A DNA stretch of 64,000 nt from Posidoniimonas corsicana (GTDB lineage Bacteria; Planctomycetota; Planctomycetia; Pirellulales; Lacipirellulaceae). Of the stretch, positions 19,516-45,907 are shown one piece after another. A model generated the notes under the pieces. That model ran no database searches. It saw only the letters and a program-made list of their open reading frames with translations, and was not told the DNA's origin. The DNA is taken from positions 2,605,311-2,669,310 of the forward strand of contig NZ_SIHJ01000001.1 in the NCBI RefSeq assembly GCF_007859765.1. Reading direction: 5' to 3'. A program made the translations under genes and the position numbers. Every line of letters begins with the position of its first letter. Position 1 is the first letter of the stretch.

Positions 19516-19544
19516 CCCCCGCGTCCCAGGACCTCCACGGTTCT

Positions 19545-20465
19545 ATGCCCGCCGACGACCAATCGCGATCGTTCCTGGAGCCCGCCGTGCTGGCGCGGCT
19601 GGCGGGCGTGCCGCTCATGGCCCGCCGCGCGATGCAGGGGAATGTCTCCGGCAAGCACCGCAGCCCCCACCGCGGTGCGAGCGTCGAGTTCGCCGAGTAC
19701 CGCAAGTACGTCCCCGGCGACGACCTCCGCCGGCTGCACTGGCGCGCGCTGGGGCGGACCGGCAGGGAGTACGTCAAGGAGTTTGAGGCCGACACCAACC
19801 TCCGCTGCTGCCTGGTGGTCGACACCAGCGGGTCGATGCGGTTCGGGTCGCACCAGAACGGCGGGCTCAGCAAGATTGACTACGCCCGCCGGCTGGCCGG
19901 GACGCTCGGCTACCTGGCAGTTCAGCAGGGCGACGCGGTCGGCCTGAGCTGCGTGTCGGACAAGGTGGTGACCGACGTGCCCGCCCGCCGCAACCCGGCG
20001 CACCTGCGGCACGTGTTCGACACGCTGGAGCAGATCCGCCCCGCCGGCGGAACCAGGCTCGTGCCCGTGCTGCACGAGCTGGCCGAGACCATCCGCCAGC
20101 GGGCGCTGGTGGTGGTGATCTCCGACCTGTTTGTCGAGCCGGGCGAGCTGCGCGAGTGCTTCGAGCACCTGCGGTTCCGCAACCACGACCTCGCCGTGTT
20201 CCACCTGCTGGACCAGCAGGAGCTGGACTTCGACTTCAATCGGCCGATGCGGTTTGTCGACATGGAGGGCGGGACCAGCATCCTGGCGGAGCCGACCGAG
20301 ATCGCCGACCGCTACCACAAGGCGCTCACCGCCTACCTGACCGGGCTCAAGACCACCGTGCTCGAAACGGGCGTCGACTACCACGCCGTGCGCGTCGACC
20401 AGCCGTACGAGCAGGCGTTGATGCGGTTCCTGGTGCAACGCACGCAGAGGGCCGGCGCCAGATGA
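19545..20465 (+). CDS. DUF58 protein with VWA-like fold
   Basis: 306 residues. The conserved DUF58 core FAEYRKYVPGDDLRRLHWRA is followed by KEFEADTNLRCCLVVDTSGS (MIDAS-like DxSGS) and VVVISDLF. The ~40 N-terminal residues (ARRAMQGNVSGKHRSPHRG) match the family. No membrane segment is seen, so it is probably cytoplasmic and works with MoxR. The stop overlaps the next start by four bases (ATGA at 20462), implying translational coupling. A regulatory or assembly role in envelope biogenesis is known only for relatives and is inferred here. Confidence 0.93.
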   Translation: MPADDQSRSFLEPAVLARLAGVPLMARRAMQGNVSGKHRSPHRGASVEFAEYRKYVPGDDLRRLHWRALGRTGREYVKEFEADTNLRCCLVVDTSGSMRFGSHQNGGLSKIDYARRLAGTLGYLAVQQGDAVGLSCVSDKVVTDVPARRNPAHLRHVFDTLEQIRPAGGTRLVPVLHELAETIRQRALVVVISDLFVEPGELRECFEHLRFRNHDLAVFHLLDQQELDFDFNRPMRFVDMEGGTSILAEPTEIADRYHKALTAYLTGLKTTVLETGVDYHAVRVDQPYEQALMRFLVQRTQRAGAR

Positions 20466-22528
20466 GCTTCCTCCAGCCATGGCTGCTGTGGGCCCTGCCG
20501 ATCGCCGGCCTGCCGATCCTGATCCACCTGGTGAACCAGCGTCGGTACCGCACGGTGGAGTGGGGCGCGATGCAGTTCCTGCTGTCGGCCAACCAGATGT
20601 CGCGCGGCTTCGCCCGCATCCGGCAGTGGCTGATCATGGCGATGCGGGTGCTGGCGATCGTGGGTCTGATCGTGGCCATCAGCCGCCCGCTGGCCAGCGG
20701 CTGGCTGGCGCTGACCGCCGGCGGCAAGGCGGACACCACGGTGGTGCTGCTGGACCGGTCGCCCAGCATGCAGGCGCAGACCAACGGGGTCTCGAAGCTC
20801 GACTCGGCCCGCCGCCAGCTGGCCGACGCGCTCGGCACGCTGGGCTCCAACCGCTGGGTGCTGATCGACAGCGCGACCGCGGCTCCACAAGAGCTCGAGT
20901 CACCGGTGGCGTTGCTCGAGTCGCCCGACGCGACCGGCGTCAGTTCATCGGCCGACCTGCCGGCCATGATGCAGACGCTCTACGATTACATCAAAACCAA
21001 CAACCCGGGCCGCACCGAAGTGTGGATCGCGTCGGACCTCAGTGAGAACGACTGGCAACGGGACAACGGGCGGTGGGCATCCTTGCGAGACGCGTTGGTC
21101 GAGTTCCCTCAGGAGGTGCGGTTCCACCTGCTGAACTACGCCGACGACTCGACCGCCAACGCCGCCGCGGCGAACCTAGCGGTCCGCGTCACCGACGCCC
21201 GACGCGTCGAGGCCGCCGGCGGCGCCGAGCTGCTGCTGTCGGCGGTCGTCACCCGTGACGCGTCGGGGACCGGCGAGCTGCCGCCGGTCAGCCTGCCGCT
21301 GCAGTTCGAGATCGACGGCGCCCGCACCCAGATGCAGATCGAGCTGGTCGGCGCCAACTTCGAGCTCAAGGACCACCGCATCCCGCTGGCCGGCGACACG
21401 CAGCGCGGTTGGGGACGCGTGAGCCTGCCGGCCGACGCCAACCCGGCCGACGACAGCGCGTACTTCGTGTTCGACGAGCCGCCCGTCCGCCGCACGGTAG
21501 TGGTGGCCGACAACGCCGACGAGGTGCGTCCGCTGACGCTGGCGGCATCGATCTCCCCCAACGCGGCCCTGGCCGAGGCCGAGGTCTTCCCGCCGGACTC
21601 CCTGCAGACGCTCGCCTGGGAGGAGCTGGCGCTGGTGGTCTGGGCGGCGGAGATCCCAACCGGCAAGACCGCCGCCCAGCTCACCCGCTTCGTCCAGCGC
21701 GGCGGCCAGCTCGTGCTGCTGCCGCCAACCGACCCAGCGGGCGAGCAGCTATTCGGCGTGCGGTGGCAGGCCTGGCGCCAGCCGCCCCAGCCGCTGACGC
21801 CCGACAACTGGCGGGGCGATCACGACCTGCTCGCCAACACCCAGAGCGGCGCCGCCCTGCCGGTCGGACGCTGGAAGGTGGCGCGGTACTGCTCGCTCGA
21901 GGGCGAGTGCAGCACACTGGCGAGCCTTCCGGGCGGCGCGCCACTGCTGGCGCGGGCGCCCACGGATGCGGGCGGCGTCTATTTCCTGGCGACCTCCACC
22001 GCGCCGACGGACTCCACGCTCGCCGCCGATGGCGTGGTGCTGTACGTGGCGATGCAGCGGGCCATCGCCGAGGGGCTCCGCGTGCTCGGCGACACCCGCA
22101 GCCAGCCGGCCGGCCCCGCCCTGCCCGCCGCGGGCGAGGACTGGCGCCGCGTGGCGGGCGACGCATCGCCTGCCGGCGAGGAGGTCCTCTCAACCGCCTA
22201 CCGCCACCACCAGGGCGTCTACGCCGCGGGCGACAAGCTGACCGCCATCAACCGGCCGCTCGCGGAGGACCACCCGGTCCCGCTCGCCGAGGGCGATGTT
22301 GAGCGGCTGTTTGCCGGGCTAGACTTCGACCAGGTCGACACGCAACCGGGCGGCGACAACCAGCTGGTGCACGAGATCTGGCGGCTGTTCCTGGGCGCGA
22401 TGATGTTGGCCCTGACCATCGAGGCCGGGCTCTGCCTGCCGCGGGTCACGAAGCCGAGCTCGCAGTTCGTGTCCGCGGTCAAGGCGCCGCCAACCGCCGC
22501 CAAGCCGGCGCTGGAGGAGGTCGCATGA
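20462..22528 (+). CDS. BatA-type membrane protein with VWA domain
   Basis: 688 residues from the ATG overlapping the DUF58 stop. The N-terminal FLQPWLLWALPIAGLPILIH, then RRYRTVEWGAMQFLL, is the BatA/TIGR02226 signature. A second membrane helix lies near residues 55-80, then a VWA domain with VVLLDRSPSMQ (DxSxS) and VWIASDLSENDW. A beta-rich middle part and a C-terminal helix (LFLGAMMLALTIEAGLCLP) follow. Topology suggests membrane anchoring at both ends with a large loop outside the cytoplasm. A likely MoxR client and partner of the following VWA protein. Confidence 0.9.
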   Translation: MSFLQPWLLWALPIAGLPILIHLVNQRRYRTVEWGAMQFLLSANQMSRGFARIRQWLIMAMRVLAIVGLIVAISRPLASGWLALTAGGKADTTVVLLDRSPSMQAQTNGVSKLDSARRQLADALGTLGSNRWVLIDSATAAPQELESPVALLESPDATGVSSSADLPAMMQTLYDYIKTNNPGRTEVWIASDLSENDWQRDNGRWASLRDALVEFPQEVRFHLLNYADDSTANAAAANLAVRVTDARRVEAAGGAELLLSAVVTRDASGTGELPPVSLPLQFEIDGARTQMQIELVGANFELKDHRIPLAGDTQRGWGRVSLPADANPADDSAYFVFDEPPVRRTVVVADNADEVRPLTLAASISPNAALAEAEVFPPDSLQTLAWEELALVVWAAEIPTGKTAAQLTRFVQRGGQLVLLPPTDPAGEQLFGVRWQAWRQPPQPLTPDNWRGDHDLLANTQSGAALPVGRWKVARYCSLEGECSTLASLPGGAPLLARAPTDAGGVYFLATSTAPTDSTLAADGVVLYVAMQRAIAEGLRVLGDTRSQPAGPALPAAGEDWRRVAGDASPAGEEVLSTAYRHHQGVYAAGDKLTAINRPLAEDHPVPLAEGDVERLFAGLDFDQVDTQPGGDNQLVHEIWRLFLGAMMLALTIEAGLCLPRVTKPSSQFVSAVKAPPTAAKPALEEVA

Positions 22529-30860: not shown

Positions 30861-33800
30861 GTGCCACGAATCCTGCGCTGCCTCCTGCTGACCACCCTGT
30901 CCTCCGCGCCGGTCGCCCTTGCGGCTGCGGGACCCACCGGGGTCCTGACCCTCTCGGGCGGCGACTACTACCAGGGCGAGTGGCTCGACGGCGGCGACCC
31001 GGGCGTCATCCGGTGGCGGCCCGGGTTCGTGGGCGAGCCGTTCGAGTTCGGCTGGGAGTCGGTCGCGTACGCCACGCTGCCCCCGCCCCGCGACGCGGTC
31101 CTGCCGCGAGGGGCTTTCCGGTTTGAGCTGTCCGGCGGCGATGTCGTGGTGGGCGACCTGGTGGACCTCTCGCCGGAGTGGTTCACGGTGTCGGCGACGC
31201 TCAACGGCGCCGACCCGCCGCAGCAGCTACGTATCCCCCGCGGCCGTGTCCGCGGGCTGGTCCGCGCCGCTCAGGGCGATGGCGGGCAGAACGCCAACGA
31301 GTTCTACATCGGGCCAGACCAGCTCTCCGCCTGGGACCCCAGCGATGAGGGCGACTGGCAGTACGCCGTGGGCGGCCTGTCTACCTCGGCTAGTCACGCG
31401 TCCGCCAGCCGAGACGTAAAGCTGCCGGTCCGCGCGTTGATCGAGGTGGAGCTGTCGTGGAAACGCGGCGCCGACTTCTCGCTCGAGCTGGGCGTCACCA
31501 AGCAAGCCGCGAGCACCGCCCTGGGCATATTCGAGGTCTGGATCCAGGGCGGCGATGGGAAACCGAAGAAGGTGCAGGAGGCCCAACCGCTCAACGCTCC
31601 CGGCGCGCCGGCTGAGAGCAAGCAGGATCAGACCGAGGCCTTCCGCATCGAGACCGTCGGCGGGCACTTGGTTGCCGTGCAGGAGAGCGCCCCCGCGGCC
31701 GACCTGGCGCCGCTGCGCGAGTTGGCGCCGGGGGCGGGCCGGGTCCAGCTCCGGCTGTACCTCGACCAGACCGCCAACCGGCTGACCGTCACCACGCCCG
31801 CGGGCGAGCAGCTCGCCGAGCTTGGCGTGGGGGGACGCACGGTGCGGTTCGGCAGCGGGATCAAGCTGACCAACCGAGAGGGCGACATCCGCCTCGACCG
31901 GCTGGCGGTGAGCCCGTGGAACGGCGCCCCGCCGGCAAGCGTCCGCGGCGACCAGCCCCGCGTGACGCTCAAGTCGGGCGAATCCGTGCACGGTGAGCTG
32001 ACCGGCTACCGACCCGAGCAGGGTCGCCTGCTTGTTACCCCGGCGGCCGACGAGCCCGCCAGCGATGAGTCGGACAACGACGCCGAAGCCAGTGAGGACG
32101 AGGTCGACCCGACCGAGCCGCAGGCGACCGAAGTCGCCCTGGACGAGGTGGTGAGCATCGTGTTCCCAGGCGGAGATTCCGAAGAAGCGGCGCCGGGGGG
32201 CGCCGTGCTGAGCGTCAACCTGCACAACGGGCTGAGGATCACCGGCGCCGCGCGGGGCGTCGAGCAGGAGCGGCTGCGGATAGCCAGCCCCAATCTAGAC
32301 GAGGAGTTGGTGGTGTCGTTGGCGGACGTGCGCGCCGTTCGTTCGGCCAGCATTCTCCCCGAGGACGGCGCGCCGGCGGCCAAGAGGAAGTCGCTGCCCA
32401 GGCTCGAAACGGACGACTCGCGTTCCGTCGGCGTGCTGTCGGCGGGGACCGAAGATCACGCCGATCGGGGCGACGCGTCGTGCCTGATGTGGCGTCCCGA
32501 GGGGAGTCGCAACGCGGCGCCGCTCCTAGACAACGTTTCCGGCCGGCTGCTGTTCCGCGAGCCCCCGCCCAAGCCGACGACGCAGGCGATGGGCGCCGCC
32601 GCGCCCGCGCCGCAGCAGCGGCAACGCGGCGTGCTGGGCGCCATCGCGTCGGTGTTCTCGTTCCAGCCGGCGGAGCCCTCAGCGGCGCCCGAGCGACAGG
32701 ACGCCGTGATGTACCTCCGCGTAGGGGACAAGCTGCCCTGCACGGTCAACCGGATCGACGACGAGGGGGTCCACTTCAGCTCGCCGTACTCCAACTCCGA
32801 CTTCGCCCCGCACAACCGGGTCAAGGCGATCGAGCTGGTCACCGACGGCGTCGACGGGCGGATGACCAGCGCGCAGCGGGACAAGCTGCTCACGCTGCCC
32901 CGCGTTCGCGAGAACGACCCGCCCACCCACCTGCTGGTGTCGACCAAGGGCGACTACCTCCGCTGCCGACTACGGTCGCTGACCGACGAGCACGCGGTGG
33001 TCGAGGTCCGCCTCGAGGAGGCGACGCTCGAACGGTCGCGGATCGCCCGCATCATCTGGCTCGACCCGCCCGACAATCCGTCCGACGGGGCGGACGCCCA
33101 GGACGCCCCGCCGCAGCGCGACCGCCCCCGCGTGCAGGCGGTGCAACGCGACGGCGTACGCCTGACGTTCTACCTCGATCGGCTCGAGGAGCAGCCGGCC
33201 GCCGACAACCAGCGGGGCAAGGGCGGGCAGACGCTGTTGATCGGCGAGAGCGACGTGCTGGCCGCCTGCAGCGTCGCGGTCGACAGCATCGACATGCTGC
33301 TGCTGGGCGACCGCATCGAGCAGGCCCGGGCGGAGCTTTCTTACCAGCGTTGGAAGATGCAGAACGCGCCCGCGCCGCGTGACGCCGCCGACTCCGAGGC
33401 GGGCGACGCGTCCACCAACTTCCCGCTGGTGGGCCAGCCGGCGCCGCCGCTCAAGCTGCCGTTCTACAGCGTCGGCGCGGACCAGGGCGGCAAGGAGTTC
33501 CAGATCGAAGACTACCGGGGCGAGGTGCTGGTGCTCGACTTCTGGGCCAGCTGGTGCGGGCCATGCATGCAGGTGATGCCGGTCGTGGACCAGGTGGGAG
33601 AGGACTTCGCCGACCGCGGCGTTAAGGTGGTGGCGGTGAACCTGCAGGAGGGCGCCGAGGAGATTACCGCCGCGCTCGACCGCCTGCAGCTTAAGCCCCA
33701 CATCGCCTTAGACCGTGACGGCGTGGCCGCGCAGCGTTACCAGGTTTCGGGCATCCCGCAGACGGTGGTCATCGGCCGCGACGGCCGCGTCGCTAACGTG

Positions 33801-33881
33801 TTTGTGGGGGGCGGCGCCCAGTACGAGGCCCGCCTGCGCGCGGCCATCGAGGCGGCGGTCGCCGCGGAAGATGTTGAGTAA
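30861..33881 (+). CDS. Large exported protein with C-terminal TlpA-like thioredoxin domain
   Basis: 1006 residues from a GTG start that gives a signal peptide (LRCLLLTTLSSAPVALAAAG). The first ~850 residues are beta-rich and contain repeated short SH3-like or Sm-like units of the form 'L-S-x-G-D-x-x-x-G-x-(L/V)' (VLTLSGGDYYQGEWL, FELSGGDVVVGDLVDL, VTLKSGESVHGELTGY, LRVGDKLPCTVNRIDDEGV). The C-terminal ~150 residues are a TlpA/AhpC-like thioredoxin domain with DFWASWCGPCM (Trp898-Cys902) and GIPQTVVIGRDGRV. Both cysteines of the CxxC are present, so it can do thiol-disulfide chemistry. Last gene of the MoxR operon. It may tie envelope assembly to redox maintenance; this fusion is uncommon. Confidence 0.8.
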   Translation: MPRILRCLLLTTLSSAPVALAAAGPTGVLTLSGGDYYQGEWLDGGDPGVIRWRPGFVGEPFEFGWESVAYATLPPPRDAVLPRGAFRFELSGGDVVVGDLVDLSPEWFTVSATLNGADPPQQLRIPRGRVRGLVRAAQGDGGQNANEFYIGPDQLSAWDPSDEGDWQYAVGGLSTSASHASASRDVKLPVRALIEVELSWKRGADFSLELGVTKQAASTALGIFEVWIQGGDGKPKKVQEAQPLNAPGAPAESKQDQTEAFRIETVGGHLVAVQESAPAADLAPLRELAPGAGRVQLRLYLDQTANRLTVTTPAGEQLAELGVGGRTVRFGSGIKLTNREGDIRLDRLAVSPWNGAPPASVRGDQPRVTLKSGESVHGELTGYRPEQGRLLVTPAADEPASDESDNDAEASEDEVDPTEPQATEVALDEVVSIVFPGGDSEEAAPGGAVLSVNLHNGLRITGAARGVEQERLRIASPNLDEELVVSLADVRAVRSASILPEDGAPAAKRKSLPRLETDDSRSVGVLSAGTEDHADRGDASCLMWRPEGSRNAAPLLDNVSGRLLFREPPPKPTTQAMGAAAPAPQQRQRGVLGAIASVFSFQPAEPSAAPERQDAVMYLRVGDKLPCTVNRIDDEGVHFSSPYSNSDFAPHNRVKAIELVTDGVDGRMTSAQRDKLLTLPRVRENDPPTHLLVSTKGDYLRCRLRSLTDEHAVVEVRLEEATLERSRIARIIWLDPPDNPSDGADAQDAPPQRDRPRVQAVQRDGVRLTFYLDRLEEQPAADNQRGKGGQTLLIGESDVLAACSVAVDSIDMLLLGDRIEQARAELSYQRWKMQNAPAPRDAADSEAGDASTNFPLVGQPAPPLKLPFYSVGADQGGKEFQIEDYRGEVLVLDFWASWCGPCMQVMPVVDQVGEDFADRGVKVVAVNLQEGAEEITAALDRLQLKPHIALDRDGVAAQRYQVSGIPQTVVIGRDGRVANVFVGGGAQYEARLRAAIEAAVAAEDVE

Positions 33882-34260: not shown

Positions 34261-34386
34261 AAACCGGTCAAAACTCCCCGCCTTCCTGGTGAGAAGTGCG
34301 CCGGTCGACTCGTTCGGACCGCGCCCGCGACGCCAAACGCCGATTCGGCTGTTCCCGCCTTCCCCTGCCCCGCCCCAGGAGTATTG

Positions 34387-36513
34387 ATGAAGCCTCTTCC
34401 CGTTCTTATTGTGCTATTTGCTGGGCCGTGCCTGGCCGCATCGCCGGAACGGCTGGTCGATTATGTGAACCCGCTGCTGGGCACGACTACGCTGTGGGAC
34501 AAGGAGGACATCGGCTACGAGCCGACCCACCGGGTGTGGGGCGGCGAGGTGTTCCCCGGCTCGTCGGTCCCCAACGCGATGGTCCAGCTGACCCCGGTCA
34601 CGCAGTTCCGCAGCGGGTCGGGGTACCAGTACGAGGATGGGACCATCTACGGATTCGCCCACACCAGCAAGGGGCACTGGAACCTGTGTCACGTGCCGCT
34701 GCTGCCGGCGACCACCGGCTACACCGCGCGTGACTACGCCTCGCCGTTCAGCCACGACAACGAGTCGGCGCACCCGGGCTACTACCAGGTGTACCTGGAG
34801 CGGTACGGCGTTGACGCCGAGCTCACCTCCACGCGGCGATGCGCGGTGCACCGTTACACCTTCAAAGAGGACGCGGGCAAGCGGCTGCTGGCCAACCTGT
34901 CGCGTTCGAACGAGCGCGTGCGGGAGTGGGACCTCGAGCAGGATGGGCCCAACGCCTTTAGCGGCTTCCAACGGACCGGCGACAGCGTCTACTTCTACGC
35001 CGTGGCGAACCACCCGATCGACCGTATCGAAACGCTGCAGGAACGCCGCCGCCGTCTGCCGGTCGTGCACTTCCAGGACGCCACGGGCCCGCTGGAGCTT
35101 AGGATCGGCTTCTCGTTCGTTAGCGTCGAGAACGCCCGGCAGAACCTCGAGCACGAGGTGGCCGACAAGTCGTTCCAAGCGGTCCGCGATGAGGCTTCCG
35201 CCGAGTGGGAGAAGCTGCTCGGCAAGGTCCGTGTGGAGGGCGGCACGGAGCGGCAGCGGAGGCTGTTCTACTCGTGCCTGTACCGCTCGTTCCTCTGGCC
35301 CGCCCTGCGGAGCGACGTCAACCAGGACTTCGCCGGGCACGGCGGGGAGCGCGAGAACCTGGACTTCGATTACTACACGATGCCCTCTCTGTGGGACGAC
35401 TACCGCAACAAGCTGGTGCTGCTGGAGATGCTCTCGCCCGGCGTAACGAGCGACGTGATCCGGTCGATGATCTACCGCGCCGAGCCCTCCGGCTTCATGC
35501 CGACCTTCTTCCATGGCGACCACGCGGCGCCGTTCATCGCCGGCGCGTACCTCCGCGGGCTCCGCGGGTTCGACGCGCAGCGGGCGTACGAGCTGCTGCT
35601 GCGGAACGCCACGCTGGAGAACCGCACGCGACCGCACGTGCTGGCCTACATCGACAAAGGCTACGTGCCGGAGCAGGACGTGGCCGACCCGGTGCTGGAG
35701 ACCGTCGCCAACGCCGGAGTCACCAAGACGCTGGAGTACGCCTACGACGACTACGCCGTGGCGCGGCTCGCCGAGGCGCTCGGCGACGCCGACAACCAGC
35801 GGTTGCTGATGCAGCGGACCGGCGCCTACAAGAACGTGTTTGACGAGTCGACCGGTTTCATGCGGGGACGGCTGGCCAGCGGCGAATGGATCAAGGAGTT
35901 CGACCCGGAGCGGGTGTTCTACGAGTACATGTACCGCGAGGCGAACGCCTGGCAGTCCACGTTCTTCGCCCCGCACGACGTGCCCGGGCTGGTTGCGCTG
36001 TACGGCGGGCCCGCGGCGTTCGAGGAGAAGCTGGACAAGCTGTTCTCGACGCCGTTCACCGGCCGCGAGGCGTACAACATGTCGGTCTTCCTCGGCCAGT
36101 ACTGCCACGGCAACCAGCCGGACCACAACTACCCGTACCTATACACACTGATCGGCAAGCCGGAGAAGTCTCAGCGGGTGCTGGACCACATCATGCAGAA
36201 ATTCTACGGCATGGGCCCGGAGGGCCTGGCGTACGCCGGCATGGACGACGCCGGTGAGATGTCTGCCTGGTACGTGTTCGCCGCGATGGGCTTCTACCCG
36301 TTCTCGCCGGCCGACCCCGAGTTTGTCGTGTCGGCGCCGCTGTTCGACAAGGTAGAGATCCAGCTAGGCGACAGCGCCGCCACGATCCGCAAGGCGGGCG
36401 GAGGCCGCCGGGTGGTCCGTGTCGAGAGCGGCGGCCGCGAGCTGGACGGTTTCGTCCTGCCCCACCCCGCGCTGACGCGGGGAGATACGATCACGATCTC
36501 GACCGAGGAGTGA
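34387..36513 (+). CDS. GH92 family alpha-mannosidase, exported
   Basis: 708 residues from the ATG at 34387 (AGGAG 5 nt upstream); a TTG immediately before it would only add one residue. A signal peptide (MKPLPVLIVLFAGPCLAAS) is followed by VDYVNPLLGTTTLWD. The N-terminal beta domain has FPGSSVPNAMVQLTPVTQFR and SGYQYEDGTIYGFAHTSKGH. The (alpha/alpha)6 domain includes TMPSLWDDYRN, HGNQPDHNYPYLY (His574 on) and GMDDAGEMSAWYVFAAMGFYPF (618 on; the family usually has GNDDCGQMS). Family knowledge: calcium-dependent exo-alpha-mannosidases with inverting mechanism acting on N-glycans or mannans. It ends one base from the convergent kinase gene. Confidence 0.93.
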   Translation: MKPLPVLIVLFAGPCLAASPERLVDYVNPLLGTTTLWDKEDIGYEPTHRVWGGEVFPGSSVPNAMVQLTPVTQFRSGSGYQYEDGTIYGFAHTSKGHWNLCHVPLLPATTGYTARDYASPFSHDNESAHPGYYQVYLERYGVDAELTSTRRCAVHRYTFKEDAGKRLLANLSRSNERVREWDLEQDGPNAFSGFQRTGDSVYFYAVANHPIDRIETLQERRRRLPVVHFQDATGPLELRIGFSFVSVENARQNLEHEVADKSFQAVRDEASAEWEKLLGKVRVEGGTERQRRLFYSCLYRSFLWPALRSDVNQDFAGHGGERENLDFDYYTMPSLWDDYRNKLVLLEMLSPGVTSDVIRSMIYRAEPSGFMPTFFHGDHAAPFIAGAYLRGLRGFDAQRAYELLLRNATLENRTRPHVLAYIDKGYVPEQDVADPVLETVANAGVTKTLEYAYDDYAVARLAEALGDADNQRLLMQRTGAYKNVFDESTGFMRGRLASGEWIKEFDPERVFYEYMYREANAWQSTFFAPHDVPGLVALYGGPAAFEEKLDKLFSTPFTGREAYNMSVFLGQYCHGNQPDHNYPYLYTLIGKPEKSQRVLDHIMQKFYGMGPEGLAYAGMDDAGEMSAWYVFAAMGFYPFSPADPEFVVSAPLFDKVEIQLGDSAATIRKAGGGRRVVRVESGGRELDGFVLPHPALTRGDTITISTEE

Positions 36514-36514
36514 C

Positions 36515-39196
36515 CTAGCGGAGGCCGGGCCACTCGATGTCGTCGCGGGCGTGCAGGCGGCTGGCGGCGTCCTCGATGTCGGCAAAGCTCTCGGCCAGCC
36601 GTGCGCCGAGCTGCAGCGGAGTGATCCCCGAGCCCAGCAGCAGCAACTGGTCGCCGGCGCCCGGCGCGGGCAGCGGGCCTGCGAGCGGCGCCGCCTGGGC
36701 CAACGCGTCCGTAGACGGGGAGTCGCCCACGAGCAACGCGACGCGGTGGTGCCCGCAGTTGAGCGGCGGCTTCATCGCCAAGAACTCCCGGACGACCGAC
36801 AGCACGCGCTCGCCGGCGCCGCCTCCCGATCGCTCCGCGAGCCGCTCGGGGAGTCGCGAGCGGAGGAACTCGCCGCAGAAGTGCTCGGCGTCCTCATGTC
36901 GGGCGACGCCCTCGGCCAGCTCTTCCAGCAGCTCGCCGTAGGCGGGCGCGAACTCGCCGGTGAGCTGCCCGGAGGCCTCGTCGGCGCCGTTGTCGCGGAG
37001 GCAGGCCTCGAGCACGCGAGTGGAGGCGGCGGCCAACTCCAGCCGCTCGGCCCGCAGTCGCGCCGCCTCGGACATCTTGGCCGCGTCGAGTCCCTCGGGC
37101 GGCGGTTCGATCAACTGCAGCAGCCGCCCCGCCAACCGTGAGTTCGCGTACCGGCCGAACGGCTCGGCGGCCGGGTCGGTCAGGCCGCTGTCGGCCTTAA
37201 GGCAGTAGCGGGAGAACTCGCGGACCCGCTGCAGGTTGTGCTGCAGCACGAGCGCCTCGCGGACTCCGTCCAGGTCCAGGCAGCGGTGGTGCGCGAACGC
37301 AACGCCCTTGCCGGATTGGGAAGAGGCCGTATTCGGCACGGCGTTGTGCGTCGACTCCAGACGGACCAGCGACGCGACGCTGGCGATCGCCCGCTGGCGG
37401 GCAGCGGCGTCGTTGCGGGTGGGGAGGTCGACCAGCCGCAGCTCGTCGAAGGGCGGAGTGTCTCGCTCGTAGAACGAGGCCGGGCCGTTGGGCGTCGCTT
37501 CGCCGCGGTTGCCGCTCCGCTGCGCGTGGTGCAGTTCTTCCAGCAAGGCGTACATGTTGGACGCCGCGAGCGAGTCCTGCGACTCGGGCCGGAAAGTGCT
37601 GGCGAACACGCCACGCACCCGCACGCCGACGCCCAGCTCGGCGGCGACCGAGCGCACGGCCTGTGCGATGTCGATCGCCGTGCCGGAGCCGGTGGCGCCG
37701 CTCGCGCCGGCCAGCAGCACCACTTGGACTTCCACCGGATCGACGTCGGCTCCTTGCGCTAGCCGCTGCAGGCGAACATACAACGCCTCGAGCACCTGCT
37801 CGGCGTGGTCGACCATCGCCAGCCTGCCCAGCGGTCGGAAGCCGCGCGTGGTGAGCGATCGCGGGATGTTGTACAGCCAGCGGCGGCTGAGCCACTTCAG
37901 CAGGTCTTGCGAGTCGTCGCGGTAGTCGCGCGGCCTGCGGAGCGGGGTGTGCAGCAGGTCATCGCGGCCGAGGGCCTCTTCCGACGCGGCGCGGCAGGTC
38001 GCTTTGAGGGCGTCCATGTCGGTGTCAATCGCCAGGCAGGCGACGCCCGGCGGCGCCGCACGCTCGGCGAACGCGGCCAGCAGCGCTCCCCCGACTCCTC
38101 CCAGGCCAACGACCAGCGTGGGCGTCGAGATGGCCTCGGCCGGGCCGACGCCTTGCGGCGGCGCTTGGTCGATCACGTCGGGCGAGACCGCCGGGAAACT
38201 GGTCCTGGGTCGGGCGCTGCTCTTGGCCGCGGCCGGCAGGGCGGCTGGCGGCGGCGCGGCGGGCAGCGGCTTGCGGTCGCCGATCGGCGCCGTGTTGAGC
38301 GACGCGGCGGACTTCGTCTCTTCGGTGGACGAGGAACCCGGCGTCGGTTGGACAGGGGCCGGCGCGGCGGGCGGCGCCGCCCCCGCCGGAACCTCACCCC
38401 GCAGCGCGGCGATGAACTGCCGGCAGCTGACGAACCTGTGCGCCGGGTCTTTGGACAGCGCCCTGCCAACCACCTGGCGGTCGTGCTCGTCGAGCGGCGT
38501 CAGGATGGGTGCCGCTTGCATGTGCTGCTTGGCGAGCTGGGCGGGCGTGCGGCCGGAGAAGGGCGCCTCGCCGGTCAGCATGTGCTGGTACACAATCGCC
38601 AGGCTGTACTGGTCGCTGAAGGGGGAGGGCTCGTCGTCGTAGAGTTCGGGTGGCGAGTAGAGCGGCGTCATGCCGCCAATCAGCGAGTTGAGCGTCTGCG
38701 ACGCGATGTCCTTCACCAAGCCGAAGTCGGCCACCTTCACGTGATCGCCAACCAGCAGCAGGTTCTCCGGCTTGATGTCCAGGTGCTGCAGCGAGTAGCG
38801 TTCGGACAGGCAGTCCAGCGCCTCGGCCGCGTCGGCCAGGTAGTTGATCAGCTCGTCACGCGGCACGCCCTGCTCGCCGGCGGCGCGGCACTCCTTGAAG
38901 CGCGCGTCCAGGCTGCGGTCGGCGAGCTCGGTCACGATCACCAGCCGGTGATTGACCACCTCGTAGCGTTCGATCGACAGCAGGAACGGGTGCCGCACGC
39001 TGCGGATCCGGTCGAGCGCCTTGCACTCGCGTTCGGCCAGCTCCTCGTCGCAGTGGCCGAACACGACCTTGATCGCCTTCTCGACGCCGCCTGGGGCGGT
39101 GGCCTTCCAGACCTCGCCGTAGCCGCCGGCGCCCAGCCGGTCCGCCAGCGCGTAGCCCTCCGGCACCTCGATGTTCGGCGCGCACTGTGTCGCCAT
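36515..39196 (-). CDS. Ser/Thr protein kinase fused to tubulin/FtsZ-like domain
   Basis: 893 residues, no membrane segment. Residues 15-265 are a complete Hanks-type kinase: GAGGYG (22-27), Lys43 in AIK, HLDIKPEN with Asp140, DFG with Asp157, and the SPPE activation-segment end, so it should be active. A Pro/Ala-rich linker (268-355) leads to a second domain starting TLVVGLGGVGGALLAAFAER (GLGGVGG at 364-370) with VVLLAGASGATGSGTAIDIA (tubulin-signature-like loop at 497-505). This matches the Tubulin_2 family of FtsZ/tubulin-like GTPases, followed by ~350 residues typical of its C-terminal part. The kinase probably phosphorylates partners, perhaps the FHA protein encoded 37 bases upstream on the same strand, while the second domain may bind GTP and polymerise or switch. 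The fusion is seen directly; the mechanism is inferred. Confidence 0.88.
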   Translation of the reverse strand: MATQCAPNIEVPEGYALADRLGAGGYGEVWKATAPGGVEKAIKVVFGHCDEELAERECKALDRIRSVRHPFLLSIERYEVVNHRLVIVTELADRSLDARFKECRAAGEQGVPRDELINYLADAAEALDCLSERYSLQHLDIKPENLLLVGDHVKVADFGLVKDIASQTLNSLIGGMTPLYSPPELYDDEPSPFSDQYSLAIVYQHMLTGEAPFSGRTPAQLAKQHMQAAPILTPLDEHDRQVVGRALSKDPAHRFVSCRQFIAALRGEVPAGAAPPAAPAPVQPTPGSSSTEETKSAASLNTAPIGDRKPLPAAPPPAALPAAAKSSARPRTSFPAVSPDVIDQAPPQGVGPAEAISTPTLVVGLGGVGGALLAAFAERAAPPGVACLAIDTDMDALKATCRAASEEALGRDDLLHTPLRRPRDYRDDSQDLLKWLSRRWLYNIPRSLTTRGFRPLGRLAMVDHAEQVLEALYVRLQRLAQGADVDPVEVQVVLLAGASGATGSGTAIDIAQAVRSVAAELGVGVRVRGVFASTFRPESQDSLAASNMYALLEELHHAQRSGNRGEATPNGPASFYERDTPPFDELRLVDLPTRNDAAARQRAIASVASLVRLESTHNAVPNTASSQSGKGVAFAHHRCLDLDGVREALVLQHNLQRVREFSRYCLKADSGLTDPAAEPFGRYANSRLAGRLLQLIEPPPEGLDAAKMSEAARLRAERLELAAASTRVLEACLRDNGADEASGQLTGEFAPAYGELLEELAEGVARHEDAEHFCGEFLRSRLPERLAERSGGGAGERVLSVVREFLAMKPPLNCGHHRVALLVGDSPSTDALAQAAPLAGPLPAPGAGDQLLLLGSGITPLQLGARLAESFADIEDAASRLHARDDIEWPGLR

Positions 39197-39233
39197 GCAG
39201 ATGCTCCCCTCGATAAGTTACCGCCCGCCACGA

Positions 39234-40361
39234 TCAGAGCAACGCCTGCTCGCTGGCGAAGGCCGACTCACGCGCCTCCAGCGATCCCGCCACGCCGCAC
39301 GTGACGCCCAGCTCCTGAGCCGCCTGGCTGTCCTCGGCGGACGCCTCGCCCGGCAGCACCAGCCGCACGCCCGCCTCCTCGCAGGCGGCCTGCACGATCT
39401 CTAGCCGCTGCGCCCGCCGCTGGTTGGTGGCGATGTCCCGCACCACCTCGGGGGCGAGCGTCAGGAAGTCGGGCGTGGCCGGGGCCAGCGACTCGACGCA
39501 CCGCGCGCCGCCAGAAAAGTTCTCGAGCGACAGCCTCGCCCCCACCGACCGGAGCGACTCGCACGTCCGCAGCGCCTGGGGCGAGTCGTTGACCCACTCC
39601 CACGGCACGCTGACGCCCAGCGCGCCGGGTCCGGGCAGCGACAGCTGCGCCTGCTGGAAGGCGGCCACGCACTGGCCGTTCAGCCGCCCGCGCCGCTCCA
39701 GCTTGAGCAGCGTGCAGGCGCCGGGCGCCCGGCCGGCGGACTGCTGCGCGGCCAGCAGCCACGCGACGTCCTGGAAGCGGGCCGCAACCGAACCAGGGTC
39801 CGGCGAGTCGACCGACTCCAGCAGCCCGGCGTGCGGCTGGTCAACGCCGACCTTCACCGCGACGAGGTCGCGGAACGGCAGCTCGTGAACCTCTTCCCGC
39901 CGCAGCGGCAGCGACACCCGCAGCAGCGACTCGCTTAGCGTGCGGGCCGCGGCGACCCGCGCGGGGGTCGAGGCGGTGTCTGCCGGCGCCGGCCCGGCGG
40001 CCAGCGGCTGGGTGACCATGCTCTGCAGCCGACCCAGCGACGAGCAGACAAACGTCAGGCAGATGTCCGCTATCCGCACGGCGTCGCCGTCGTGCAGGGT
40101 TTGTTCGGTGATGCGTGCGCCGTTGATCCAGGTGCCGTTGGTGCTGCCGAGGTCGCGGAGCAGGTAGCCGCCCGCGGTCCGCTCGAGCTGCGCGTGCTCG
40201 CGCGACACGCTGGTGGAGTTGATCTCCAGCCCCGAGTTCTCGCCCCGCCCAATGATGAACGGCGTCTGCTCGACCATCACGGTGCGGAGCTTCGAGCTGC
40301 CCGGCGGGTAGTACTCGAACCGGGGGCGGTTCTCGCTATCGGAATTCAGCTTCGGTAGCAC
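39234..40361 (-). CDS. FHA domain protein with degenerate EAL domain
   Basis: 375 residues from a GTG at 40361 with GAGG 10 nt upstream; an ORF extension to 40481 lacks domain content. The FHA domain (about 34-105) has all phosphopeptide contacts: FIIGRGENS, SVSREHAQL and GSTNGTWINGARI. The C-terminal ~240 residues follow the EAL fold (LGVSVPWEWVNDSPQALRTC; GARLSLENFSGGARCVESLA; PDFLTLAPEVVRDIATNQRR) but lack the EAL motif and the metal-binding acidic residues, so it probably cannot hydrolyse c-di-GMP. It could bind a phosphothreonine of the downstream kinase-tubulin protein, with which it shares strand and likely transcript. Cytoplasmic. Confidence 0.85.
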   Translation of the reverse strand: MLPKLNSDSENRPRFEYYPPGSSKLRTVMVEQTPFIIGRGENSGLEINSTSVSREHAQLERTAGGYLLRDLGSTNGTWINGARITEQTLHDGDAVRIADICLTFVCSSLGRLQSMVTQPLAAGPAPADTASTPARVAAARTLSESLLRVSLPLRREEVHELPFRDLVAVKVGVDQPHAGLLESVDSPDPGSVAARFQDVAWLLAAQQSAGRAPGACTLLKLERRGRLNGQCVAAFQQAQLSLPGPGALGVSVPWEWVNDSPQALRTCESLRSVGARLSLENFSGGARCVESLAPATPDFLTLAPEVVRDIATNQRRAQRLEIVQAACEEAGVRLVLPGEASAEDSQAAQELGVTCGVAGSLEARESAFASEQALL

Positions 40362-40539
40362 GGGGTGTCTGCCTCGGGGCTGATCGGCGCCGTTCCTGTG
40401 AATCGCGTCGGAAGCAGCGCCCCAGCGCACGACGACAACGCGTCGCGACCGGCTGTGCCTACTGTTTGCCCTACTTCCCATCGAAACCCTAGCTCACACG
40501 GCGGCGGTCGGCGGAGCGGTCGGGCCGAAGGGAAAAAGA

Positions 40540-42036
40540 ATGCTAGGTTTTCGTTGGCGACCGTACACGCACATTCTCATCTGCGAGGCAGCAGTGGCTT
40601 CCGAACCAAACGCTATCGACGTCACGATCGTTTCCACCGACCCCGCATTCCTAAAGGAGACGGCCTGGACCCTCTCGGTTTTCGGGTACCGCGCGACCGC
40701 TTCGACCGATTGGAGCGAAGAGGCGGCTTGGCAGCAGTCCACCCGTCCCGGCGTCACGCTGCTCGACCTGCGGGAGACCGATGCCGACGACCTCGCCACG
40801 CTCGGCCCCCGCGGCGCGGGCTACTCGTGCCGCATCGCGATCGCCGACCAGCACGCCCAGGTAGATGACGCGTTGCTCGGCCTGGTCGACGACGTCATCG
40901 CCTACCCGGTCAACTCGGGCGAGCTGCTCTCCCGGGTCCGCACCGCGGCCCGCCGGCTGGAGTTCGAGCGGCGATTCCAGCAGGCGGCCGTGGCTGAGCC
41001 CGGAGGCGGGATGCTCACCCGCCGCGGACTGACCGCCGCGCTGGGCCGCGGCGACTCGTCGGACGCTGTCCTGGCGCTGCTGGCGGTCGACTTCTTTGAC
41101 GTGATTGTGCACGAGCACGGCCAGCACGCGGCCCACCGGCTGCTCAACACGCTGGGCCGCCGCGTCCACCAGCAGCTCGGCGCCGAGGCGGAAGTAGCCA
41201 CGGCGGCGCCCGGCGTGTTTGGCGTGCTGTTCCGTGGGGGCAGCCTCGAGGACGCGCAGGCCGCGGTGCAGCGGGTGGTCAGCGCCTTCTCTTCCAGCGA
41301 GACCATCGCCCGCGAGACGCGATCCCGGCCTTCGCTGTCGGCGGTGGTCGCCCGCTGCGACGCCGACCTGCCGCCCGACGAGCTGCTGCAGCGGGCGGAG
41401 TCGGCGTTGGAGTACGCCTCGTGCTACGGCGGTGGGCGGGTGCTGGAGGTCGCGACCGTCGAGGCCGAGCTGGACGCCTGGCGGGACCGCGTCGAGAACG
41501 GCGCCCTGCTGCAGAGCGTCGCGGCGCGGCACGTGATGGCGCCGCTGCCGCTGGCGATCGGTCAGGACCGCCTGCCGACCCGCCTGGACGAACTGCGCCG
41601 CGCGGCCGACCAGAAGCAGACCCTGCCCGACTGCGTGCCGGTTGTCGGGGCCGACGGCGCCGTGACGGGCGTCGTGAACCTGCCGCTCCTCCAGCGGTCG
41701 GCCCTGACGCGGACCGCCGTGGACGACGCCGACCTCGTGACCGATCAGTTCTGGACCTGCCCCGCTGGCGCCGCGCTGAGCGACGTGCTCAATGCCTTCT
41801 CCGAACACCAGACCGAAACCCTCGTTGTAGTAGAAGACGCCCTGCCGGTTGGCTACATCACCTGCAACGCGGTGACCGAGCTGTACACCTCCGCCGTGGA
41901 CGCCGGCGCCTACCGCCGGCAGGCGCCAGTCGGCCGCGTCGAGGACCTCGCCGTGCCGCTGGCCCGCCCCGAGTCCCGCCCCCCGGCCGTCGACCCGTGC
42001 GAGGACGTGCCCACCGTGTGCGAGACCGCCGTCTAG
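40540..42036 (+). CDS. Receiver-like, degenerate GGDEF and CBS domain regulator
   Basis: 498 residues. The ATG at 40540 has AGGG 7 nt upstream; a GTG at 40594 with GAGG 5 nt upstream would give 480 residues and is a good alternative. Residues ~27-145 look like a pseudo-receiver domain (VTIVSTDPAFLKETAWTLSV, TLLDLRETDADDLATL). Residues ~155-305 look like a GGDEF domain whose active-site loop reads AAPGVFGVLFRGG instead of GG(D/E)EF, so diguanylate cyclase activity is unlikely. Residues ~330-470 contain CBS-pair-like motifs (PVVGADGAVTGVVNL, LVVVEDALPVGYITC). Divergently transcribed from the FHA/kinase pair with only 178 bases between. Probably a ligand-responsive scaffold. Confidence 0.78.
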   Translation: MLGFRWRPYTHILICEAAVASEPNAIDVTIVSTDPAFLKETAWTLSVFGYRATASTDWSEEAAWQQSTRPGVTLLDLRETDADDLATLGPRGAGYSCRIAIADQHAQVDDALLGLVDDVIAYPVNSGELLSRVRTAARRLEFERRFQQAAVAEPGGGMLTRRGLTAALGRGDSSDAVLALLAVDFFDVIVHEHGQHAAHRLLNTLGRRVHQQLGAEAEVATAAPGVFGVLFRGGSLEDAQAAVQRVVSAFSSSETIARETRSRPSLSAVVARCDADLPPDELLQRAESALEYASCYGGGRVLEVATVEAELDAWRDRVENGALLQSVAARHVMAPLPLAIGQDRLPTRLDELRRAADQKQTLPDCVPVVGADGAVTGVVNLPLLQRSALTRTAVDDADLVTDQFWTCPAGAALSDVLNAFSEHQTETLVVVEDALPVGYITCNAVTELYTSAVDAGAYRRQAPVGRVEDLAVPLARPESRPPAVDPCEDVPTVCETAV

Positions 42037-43575: not shown

Positions 43576-45741
43576 CTACTCGTCGGCCATCACGGTGAAG
43601 TAGTTGTTCACCGCGTGGTCCAGGATCTCCGGAACCGCCGTGGGCTCCAGCTCGTTGTACTCGCAGTAGTGCGCCACCTGGTCCAGCAGGTCGCGCGCCT
43701 GGCAGCGGCGGAACGGGCGGTCGCAGGAGTCGTAGTGCGTGGCGAGCAGGTAGTCGAGCGACTCCTGCGGGCAGTCCACCTTGAGCTTCTTGGCGAAGAT
43801 GCCGAACAGCTTGATGAACTCGTCGCGGCTGGGCGCGCCGACCTCGATCTTGAACGGGATCCGGCGGAGGAACGCGTCGTCGGCCAGGTCGGTCGGGTCG
43901 AGGTTGGTCGAGAAGATGATCAGCTGCTCGAACGGCACCTCGATCTTCTTGCCGTTGGCCAGGCCGAGGTAGTCGATCCGGTTCTCGAGCGGGATGATCC
44001 AGCGGTTGAGCAGCTCGGTCGGGTTGACGCGCTGGCGGCCGAAGTCGTCGATCAGCAGGCTGCCGCAGTTGCTCTTGAGCTGCAGCGAGGCCTCGCTGAC
44101 GTGGCTCAGGTGGTCGTGCTTCAGCTCCAGGCTGTCCATCGTCAGCTCGCCGCCGACCACCACCGTCGGCCGGCGGATGCGGACCCAGCGGCGGTCGTGC
44201 TCGCTCGCCTTGAGCAGGCTGCCGGCCTTGGACTGCACCGGCTCGTGGCAGGAGGGGTCGAAGAACTTGATGATCTGGCCGTCTTCGACGATGGCGTGCG
44301 GCACCAGGATGTTCTGGCCGAAGCACTTGGTGATCCGCTGCGCGACGGTGGTCTTGCCGTTGCCGGGCGGGCCGTAGATGAACATGCCCTTGCCGGCGCT
44401 GATGGCCGGGCCGAGCTGGGCCAGCATCTCCGGCTCGACGTTGATGTCGGAGAACGCCTTCTCCAGCTGCGGGCGCTTGGGCTTCTCGGTGCGGATGGTC
44501 TGCGCCTGCACGGAGTCGACGTAGTCGTCCAGCGGCACGGGCGCGACGCCGGCGTAGGCGCACTCGCGCATCGCGGCAGCGGCCCGCTGCCGGCCCTCGT
44601 CGGTGAGCTGGTAAACGTGGTCGCCCAGCATGGCCGAGGCGGTCGGCGTGATGGTCCGCCGCTTGCGCATCTCGGCGAACCGGTCCTCCAGCACGGCCAG
44701 CGGCAGGCAGACGTGCTCGGCGATCTCGCGTCCCGAGATCGAGCCGGCGTTCTGCACCACCTTCAGCACCAGGTCGTCGATGAAGGCGATGCTGAGGCCG
44801 GTTTCTTCCAGGGTGCGCGGCTCTTCGGGGCGGAAGCCCTCGTTCAGGCCCAGCGACGACAGCAGGTCGGCGTCTTTGCTCTTGGATGTCCGCCAGGTGG
44901 GCGCGGAGTCGGCGCCCACCGCTGGGGCGGCCGGTTTGGGCGGCGGCGCCACGGTCATGTTGGGGCTGGCGTCGGCCTCGGCCGTGGCGGCGTCGACCTT
45001 CTGCTGCAGTTGGTCGAACACGTCGTCTTCGCTGGACAGGTTGAGCGTCGCGCCGTCCCGCGGCGGCAGTTCCGCGTCCGACTCGCGCAGCAGGTCGCGG
45101 GCAGACTCTCCGGGGCGGAAGCTGAGCGACGCGTTGTCGCTTGAGGGCGCCTCGGAGGACAGGTTCAGCGTCGCCCCCCCCTGCGGCGGCTGGTCGCCGC
45201 CAGACTCGCCGAGGATCTCCCGCGCCAGCTCACCGGGGCGGATGCTCAGCGATTGGTTGCCTGGCGTCGGCTGGGCGTCGGCGGTCTCCTCCGCGACGCG
45301 TTCCTCGAGCTGGTCAAGCAGCGACTCGCCCGGCGCCAGGTTCAGCGTTGCATTCGGCCGCTCCTCTTGCTGAGGCGTGTTGGCGGACGTGATGGGCTGC
45401 GTGACGTCGATCGACATAGAGCTCCCTGCCAGGCTCGCCGCCCGGGACTGTTGGCTGAGTTTACGGCTGAGCTGCCAGCCGAAGTTGGTGAGTTCGTAGC
45501 CGTTCTTGCCGGACGCGTGGCGCACGAGCTGCAGCTCGATAAGCCGCGGGATCGCGTCGCAGCACCGCCTCGCGTAGGCGAGGTCGTCCGGCTTGAAGAG
45601 CTTCTTCTTGCCCCCCCGGATGGCGGGGCCTTTGGTGTCCGAGCGCGAACTGACCTCGAACGCGCCCCGGTTGGCCGCCGCCAGCTCGACGACCGCGCGT
45701 TCTACCGGATTTAAGGATTCTGTGTCCGCGATGGTGTGCAT
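43576..45741 (-). CDS. AAA+ ATPase with winged-helix-like segments and repeated linker motif
   Basis: 721 residues from the ATG at 45741 (AGGGG 7 nt upstream). Residues ~1-95 resemble a winged-helix module (YARRCCDAIPRLIELQLVRH, YELTNFGWQLSRKL). Residues ~130-250 are an acidic disordered linker with repeated phrases such as GATLNLSSE and RPGE(S/L)AR(D/E). A second winged-helix-like part follows (VVQNAGSISGREIAEHVCLP). The AAA+ core has GPPGNGKT (457-464), LLIDDFG (562-568) and the sensor IFSTNLDP. It has the feel of a ring-forming remodelling ATPase; the substrate is unknown. Encoded upstream on the same strand is a TPR membrane protein, separated by 166 bases. Confidence 0.8.
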   Translation of the reverse strand: MHTIADTESLNPVERAVVELAAANRGAFEVSSRSDTKGPAIRGGKKKLFKPDDLAYARRCCDAIPRLIELQLVRHASGKNGYELTNFGWQLSRKLSQQSRAASLAGSSMSIDVTQPITSANTPQQEERPNATLNLAPGESLLDQLEERVAEETADAQPTPGNQSLSIRPGELAREILGESGGDQPPQGGATLNLSSEAPSSDNASLSFRPGESARDLLRESDAELPPRDGATLNLSSEDDVFDQLQQKVDAATAEADASPNMTVAPPPKPAAPAVGADSAPTWRTSKSKDADLLSSLGLNEGFRPEEPRTLEETGLSIAFIDDLVLKVVQNAGSISGREIAEHVCLPLAVLEDRFAEMRKRRTITPTASAMLGDHVYQLTDEGRQRAAAAMRECAYAGVAPVPLDDYVDSVQAQTIRTEKPKRPQLEKAFSDINVEPEMLAQLGPAISAGKGMFIYGPPGNGKTTVAQRITKCFGQNILVPHAIVEDGQIIKFFDPSCHEPVQSKAGSLLKASEHDRRWVRIRRPTVVVGGELTMDSLELKHDHLSHVSEASLQLKSNCGSLLIDDFGRQRVNPTELLNRWIIPLENRIDYLGLANGKKIEVPFEQLIIFSTNLDPTDLADDAFLRRIPFKIEVGAPSRDEFIKLFGIFAKKLKVDCPQESLDYLLATHYDSCDRPFRRCQARDLLDQVAHYCEYNELEPTAVPEILDHAVNNYFTVMADE

Positions 45742-45907
45742 AGATCGCCCCTGCCGCAGTGCCCGAACTGCCATCGAAAGACTAGCACACGACCGGGCCG
45801 GAGGCGGCGGCCGGCGGGAGACGGGCGTGAGACCCCCGCGGCGCGAGCATCAGGCAGCTTCGCCAATGGTCGAGGCGGGCAGCCTGCCGCTGTCGCGAAG
45901 CGGGGGG

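Follow-up and report, generated by a model that had tools for sequence, protein, structure and literature searches.

What does a serine/threonine (Ser/Thr) kinase joined in one chain to a tubulin-like domain do in a planctomycete, and which partners does it have? We examined this question for a kinase-Tubulin_2 fusion gene, here called KT, in a stretch of 64,000 nucleotides of the Posidoniimonas corsicana genome (contig NZ_SIHJ01000001.1, positions 2,605,311 to 2,669,310; the window). An original prediction had treated the fusion as unusual and had suggested that it could couple phosphorylation to GTP-driven polymerisation. The kinase-Tubulin_2 architecture is already known from Planctomycetota. 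Makarova and Koonin described in 2010 (PMC2875224) four FtsZ-like proteins of planctomycetes that carry a kinase at the N-terminus, and a kinase-tubulin-like fusion is mentioned in two later papers (PMC9871819, 2023; PMC11032199, 2024), in the portions of these papers covered here. The cassette in which KT lies, with an AAA ATPase, an FHA(-EAL) protein and a GGDEF-CBS protein, is not in the original prediction. We hold with moderate confidence that KT is the core of a phospho-regulated tubulin-fold scaffold cassette, read by the FHA protein and remodelled by the AAA ATPase, a function that we infer from the parts observed.

The KT open reading frame (ORF) is exactly 36515..39196 on the minus strand, starts with ATG, encodes 893 amino acids and has Pfam matches and 37 homologous loci in relatives. 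A Shine-Dalgarno-like sequence read from the DNA, GAGGGGAG, lies 7 nucleotides upstream of the ATG (39204..39211, minus strand). The kinase domain (residues 16-254; 38435..39151, minus strand) matched the Pfam Pkinase family PF00069 with 93.3 bits (E 2.1e-26; cut-off 31.7). It is followed by a Pro/Thr-rich linker of about residues 268-358 (38123..38395, minus strand) and by the Tubulin_2 nucleotide-binding domain (residues 361-608; 37373..38116, minus strand), for which the profile search proposed with the original prediction gave 85 bits to PF13809 (E 8.1e-24; cut-off 27). The C-terminal region (36518..37372, minus strand) is mostly helical in the structure model and ends in a conserved R..R.D..W motif.

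The homologous loci were drawn from 59 genomes of near relatives containing 40 Tubulin_2 places, of which 37 were kept and the window itself and two fragments (G031 and G054) were left out. A second set comprised the 80 best loci from GTDB genomes. Some loci belong to both sets, which are hence not independent; L040 and L069, for instance, are one contig by length. The alignments held 17 of the 37 loci (A1), 17 of the 30 AAA genes (A2), 62 of 74 non-redundant relatives (A3) and 30 of 41 (A4). The kinase and Tubulin_2 domains are encoded by a single ORF at 36 of the 37 loci from relatives and at all 80 of the best GTDB loci, which were kept from 411 relatives by a ranking that favours full-length matches; the fusion is therefore not due to chance. 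One relative (L054:4646-7165) has a Tubulin_2 ORF without a kinase directly after an AAA gene, which may represent kinase loss or an older state. The motifs of a protein kinase are the P-loop, the VAIK lysine, the HxD aspartate and the DFG aspartate, and all of them are kept in KT. Residues K43, E57, D140, N145 and D157 showed no variation in 18 of 18 aligned sequences (the window and 17 of the 37 loci). KT is thus a Ser/Thr kinase with its catalytic residues in place, and its activity is predicted. In the second domain, all 63 rows of the KT family matched Tubulin_2 at an E value of ≤0.001, 10 of them matched the FtsZ/tubulin family PF00091 as well, and an RRWLY block was kept in 38 of 38 aligned rows. 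The description of KT as a Ser/Thr kinase fused to a genuine Tubulin_2 domain was therefore borne out, and GAGGYG (22-27), K43, D140, D157, GLGGVGG (364-370) and GASGATGSG (497-505) all lie at the residues originally assigned to them.

A search of the Tubulin_2 part by sequence against PDB chains returned a chance match only (E 1.3), and a fold comparison was therefore needed; PF00091 scored 16.6 bits on KT, below its cut-off of 33. We modelled KT residues 347-893, the region after the linker, with AlphaFold2 from the 63-row alignment A3 (the window and 62 loci), which gave a mean pLDDT of 86.7 and a pTM of 0.85. Foldseek returned 104 PDB matches at an E value of ≤0.001, and each of the best 50 of the 104 was either a member of the tubulin/FtsZ superfamily or a complex that contains tubulin. 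CetZ, FtsZ, TubZ and tubulin are among the fold matches, with CetZ (3zid) at the top (E 3.9e-5, probability 1.00, TMq 0.32, TMt 0.47). By this model, residues 347-893 hold a genuine Tubulin_2 domain of the FtsZ/tubulin fold with a Rossmann-type core, in agreement with the original prediction, which had proposed a comparison with FtsZ and TubZ structures. Of the two outcomes named there as speaking against it, a lack of any significant Tubulin_2 match and a predicted fold without the FtsZ/tubulin core, neither was observed.

The kinase might then control in cis a dynamic filament former of the Tubulin_2 family, with phosphorylation coupled to GTP-driven polymerisation, as the original prediction had it. 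Besides the fold itself, this reading draws on the glycine-rich T1 (GxGG) and T4 (GGTGSG-like) loops, which are retained in most relatives. However, the T4 loop of the window's KT is SGATGSG and differs from GGTGSG, and the large C-terminal region is unlike that of FtsZ. In FtsZ the T7 loop supplies the catalytic acids through an NxDxxD-type motif. A loose form of this pattern (N/D-x-D/E-x-x-D/E) was matched in only 1 of the 63 rows, and at the sequence level an FtsZ-type T7 catalytic loop is not recognisable in the KT family (62 of 63 sequences). Dynamic polymerisation driven by GTP hydrolysis therefore lacks sequence support. Every one of the 63 rows does have an acidic residue of some kind in its T7 stretch, and a shifted catalytic acid is possible; the model is less certain in this stretch (pLDDT 69-77). 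We consider a filament of this kind rather unlikely. KT thus shares with FtsZ, CetZ, TubZ and tubulin the fold of the nucleotide-binding core and the T1 and T4 glycine-rich loops, and it is unlike them in its unrecognisable T7, its other C-terminal half and its kinase in cis.

The partners of KT were sought in the genes around it. Directly upstream lies a gene for a 415-amino-acid protein in which an FHA domain (PF00498, 64.4 bits) is fused to a degenerate EAL domain (39234..40481, minus strand). It is followed by a divergent gene for a 498-amino-acid GGDEF-CBS protein, recognised from Pfam matches and alignment, that has lost the GGDEF signature (40540..42036, plus strand), and by a gene for a 732-amino-acid AAA ATPase of a KT-linked subtype, assigned by alignment and co-occurrence, with Walker A GPPGNGKT and Walker B LLIDDFG (43576..45774, minus strand). 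Among the 37 loci of relatives, 35 have an FHA gene, 30 an AAA gene and 17 a GGDEF-CBS gene. The 80 named loci, many of which end at contig edges, include FHA in 71, AAA in 53, EAL in 31 and GGDEF-CBS in 29. The loci were found with KT-derived queries, and the counts describe KT loci rather than genomes. No other window gene had matches in at least 5 of the 37 loci (flanks of about 7-8 kb), antisense shadow ORFs of the four cassette genes aside. A similar ORF in 8 compared loci encodes a 120-amino-acid protein (L033:11892-12254) that we take to resemble STAS.

Three layouts recurred. In the window's own, an AAA gene is followed by a GGDEF-CBS gene in the opposite direction and then by FHA-EAL and KT in the direction of the AAA gene. 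The second has AAA, KT and FHA all in one direction, and the third, seen in 25 of the 80 named loci, has an FHA gene in the opposite direction before AAA and KT. A tree of 37 rows, from which L054 was left out, requires two changes to account for the presence and absence of GGDEF-CBS at these loci, although a single origin is conceivable. A promoter scan of the cassette gave 0 promoter-like sites, and a terminator scan gave 8 terminator-like sites compared to 4.6 in shuffled sequences, with nothing usable. The P. corsicana genome has a second KT gene (L032, contig C1 919000-936000) with the layout AAA, KT, FHA, in which the ends of AAA and KT and those of KT and FHA overlap by a few bases (L165). 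No more than 12 FHA matches occur in this genome, two of which adjoin its two KT genes. In the tree the window belongs to a clade of 11 rows (100/100) that is well separated from L032, and the two cassettes therefore look like old paralogues. Both KT types also coexist in two further genomes (G001 and G011).

The AAA ATPase followed KT beyond the loci themselves. In a search of the 59 genomes with an alignment built from KT-linked copies, the line for the KT-type AAA was set at 700 bits, in a score gap from 720 to 653. Above it, the subtype was present in 35 of the 37 genomes with a Tubulin_2 match and in 0 of the 22 without one. The Fisher value of this co-occurrence, 3e-14, is not to be taken at face value, since the genomes are related and the alignment was KT-linked. 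The two exceptions were G008, a genome 66% complete in which the AAA match is a fragment (209 bits), and G054, in which the Tubulin_2 match is itself a fragment. In six genomes the AAA gene is present apart from KT, on another contig in five and on the same contig in one (G010). Four genera (g3, g6, g7 and g12) hold both states, and the AAA subtype tracks Tubulin_2 every time. The AAA partner is thus a distinct subtype that tracks KT across genomes. Its Walker A and Walker B residues showed no variation in 18 of 18 aligned sequences. In the N-terminal third of the window's AAA protein (43576-45774), short motifs (TLNL.., SLSFRPGES..) recur within a stretch that looks low in complexity and is largely missing from the 17 aligned relatives; it is possible that these repeats are FHA ligands. 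Lower-scoring AAA paralogues were also found, among them divergent copies beside an HDOD gene (L149, 7974-9485; L151, 8868 onwards) and one with CBS domains in a neighbour (L156). Across the 8 proteins scanned, the neighbours of these paralogues had HDOD at two, CBS at one and CinA-like and aminotransferase domains at others, with two lacking a Pfam match, and no function follows from them.

The FHA domain binds phosphopeptides through G-R, S, H and N residues of its binding loops. The corresponding G78, R79, S93, H96 and N115 were kept in 108 of 108 rows from the overlapping locus sets, and with all phosphopeptide-binding residues kept, the FHA protein is predicted to be a phosphothreonine reader. 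Cyclases and phosphodiesterases of c-di-GMP carry the signatures GG(D/E)EF and EAL, respectively. The EAL match of the FHA protein (PF00563, 44.3 bits) covers only profile positions 110-227 of 236, which is its second half. The window's GGDEF-CBS protein has no intact GGDEF/GGEEF signature, and among the rows listed GGEEF occurred in one protein only, listed twice. The catalytic signatures of a c-di-GMP cyclase or phosphodiesterase were thus not found in the GGDEF and EAL modules of the cassette. The KT linker, with 8.4% threonine across 81 family linkers compared to 5.0% in the whole proteins, is possibly a phospho-Thr docking tail. In line with this, the motif T-x-hydrophobic-hydrophobic, a post hoc choice, is present in 26 of 74 non-redundant linkers compared to 6.7 in shuffled sequences.

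Taken as one system, these parts suggest the following mechanism. The Tubulin_2 part would bind guanine nucleotide and act as a nucleotide-switched oligomerising scaffold rather than as a treadmilling GTPase. Assembly of the scaffold would bring the kinases together, leading to trans-phosphorylation of the linker and of bound partners or clients. The FHA protein would dock on the phospho-threonines, and the AAA ATPase would disassemble the scaffold or remodel its client. The degenerate GGDEF-CBS and EAL modules may serve as sensors or binding surfaces and not as c-di-GMP enzymes. We advance more tentatively the wider proposal that KT is the hub of a hitherto undescribed Pirellulales signalling machine, made of a kinase, a tubulin-fold scaffold, an FHA reader and a dedicated AAA ATPase gained and lost with KT, in which a tubulin-fold domain may have given up the role of a cytomotive GTPase and become an assembly platform controlled by phosphorylation. 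In mycobacterial PknB-FHA signalling, a Ser/Thr kinase likewise has an FHA reader encoded beside it, and there is no tubulin domain and no AAA ATPase. KT resembles this arrangement in its kinase and adjoining FHA reader and adds a tubulin domain and an AAA ATPase to it.

Several points weigh against a phospho-regulated scaffold. We infer each of its functional steps, from GTP binding and oligomerisation to autophosphorylation and the docking of FHA. The TM-scores of the KT model to known tubulins are modest (TMq 0.24-0.35), the acidic residues in the T7 stretch leave room for the shifted catalytic acid noted above, and the ATPase core of the AAA protein is modelled poorly (mean pLDDT 66.9). 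The linker motif T-x-hydrophobic-hydrophobic was chosen post hoc. Another FHA preference is T-x-x-D/E; a ligand of the TxxD type in the linker was rejected, being depleted there (20 observed versus 35.8 in shuffled sequences). Finally, the L054 locus has Tubulin_2 and AAA genes, but the kinase is absent from the ORF and an FHA match is absent from the locus.

The same genes could instead form a conflict or stress-response system, in which KT, AAA and FHA together would make a thresholded switch by analogy with NTP-dependent conflict systems built on MoxR-like ATPases, GTPases and homologues of tubulin. Kaur et al. (PMC7159879, 2020), in the portion covered, report systems that centre on GTPases and include tubulin homologues, as well as MoxR-vWA systems, several of them in planctomycetes. 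Like the KT cassette, these make use of AAA ATPases and tubulin homologues, and in some cases of FHA domains. The presence of Tubulin_2 in relatives is patchy (37 of 59), a single genome holds two paralogous cassettes, and for the window's AAA protein PADLOC gave weak matches to IetA, an anti-phage ATPase, that span a short segment around Walker A and reach 30.6 bits at most, while NCBIfam gave a likewise weak one to IteA (27.7 bits versus a cut-off of 510). However, unlike the systems of that paper as far as covered, the four cassette proteins contain no vWA, GTPase or effector domain by Pfam, and kinase and tubulin form one chain. The FHA and GGDEF-CBS proteins had 0 PADLOC matches, and the tree shows well-supported old clades. 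For KT itself, the NCBIfam kinase matches were all far below their cut-offs and the PADLOC matches fell in the kinase part, a few extending into the linker; therefore, no defence family was assigned. The original prediction had also named VWA genes as frequent neighbours of such proteins. Around 15 KT genes of 12 genomes, none of the VWA matches listed lay closer than 10 kb, the nearest listed being about 10.5 kb away (G017), and as far as these matches show the cassette is therefore not of the FtsZl1-VWA operon type of 2010. A conflict system appears improbable to us.

The distribution of KT bears on another explanation, that KT substitutes for FtsZ in planctomycete cell division. The original prediction had linked the fusion to the loss of FtsZ, and one side of that link stood: the P. 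corsicana genome gave 0 PF00091 matches at an E value of ≤0.001, while 13 of 14 control genomes gave a match. Planctomycetota are reported to be without FtsZ in the portion covered of PMC11032199, and a Gemmata genome report, likewise as far as covered, places FtsZl1 by similarity among the cell division/cytoskeleton proteins (PMC4672568). The other side did not hold. Tubulin_2 matches were found in 37 of the 59 near relatives and were missing from 22, including 18 of the 48 relatives whose completeness is 90% or more and whose contamination does not exceed 5%, and KT therefore cannot be a general FtsZ replacement. In a phylum-wide draw of 294 genomes, with 3 candidates scored per genome, 286 had no match to the family alignment at an E value of ≤1e-10. 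Among the 8 that matched, the full fusion was found in the P. corsicana genome, in two genomes of the same order and in one of the same class; the remaining 4 matches were weak or partial, and a kinase match was absent from the short stretches fetched. A role in place of FtsZ is thus very hard to credit. The KT cassette is found mainly in Pirellulales. By their record titles, the 80 best GTDB loci all belong to planctomycete groups, except for one metagenome-assembled genome titled 'bacterium', and the named cultured hosts include Bythopirellula polymerisocia (Lacipirellulaceae, Pirellulales), Lacipirellula limnantheis, Aeoliella straminimaris, Adhaeretor mobilis and two Botrimarina species.

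Compared with published systems, as far as the sources were covered, KT is closest in architecture to the planctomycete FtsZl1 (PMC2875224), which has an N-terminal kinase and a Tubulin_2 domain of the same Pfam family. The FtsZl1 family is given VWA, GTPase and OmpA partners there, with no mention of FHA in the main text covered; KT, unlike it, has the AAA, FHA(-EAL) and GGDEF-CBS proteins. The tubulin-like cytoplasmic Ser/Thr kinases of Planctomycetota (PMC11032199) have the same architecture and are treated in the portion covered with neither gene context nor mechanism, whereas KT is set here in a cassette. Haloarchaeal ESCRT-associated loci (PMC10936438) likewise combine an AAA ATPase (Vps4) with Ser/Thr kinases and FHA and, in one of their types, with a relative of CetZ. 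Those loci have an archaeal ESCRT-III context and separate genes, and the likeness noted is one of theme. We found no published description of an AAA/FHA/GGDEF-CBS cassette with KT in the open literature, and figure 2C and the additional files of PMC2875224 may show planctomycete neighbourhoods. No tested function for KT's branch of the tubulin superfamily was found in the literature covered. The cassette supplies concrete partners to test for this branch, and the question moves from FtsZ replacement, against which the distribution speaks, to a phospho-regulated, AAA-remodelled scaffold of the tubulin fold.

Elsewhere in the window, genes for a MoxR-type AAA protein, a DUF58/VWA_2 protein and a BatA protein stand in a row at 18469-22528, about 14 kb from KT, and are not conserved beside KT. 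A 1006-amino-acid protein encoded at 30861-33881 has a thioredoxin-like (Redoxin/AhpC-TSA) domain at its C-terminus. The immediate neighbour of KT on its 3' side is a gene of glycosyl hydrolase family 92 (34384-36513), which is convergent with KT, a single base separating the ends of the two ORFs.

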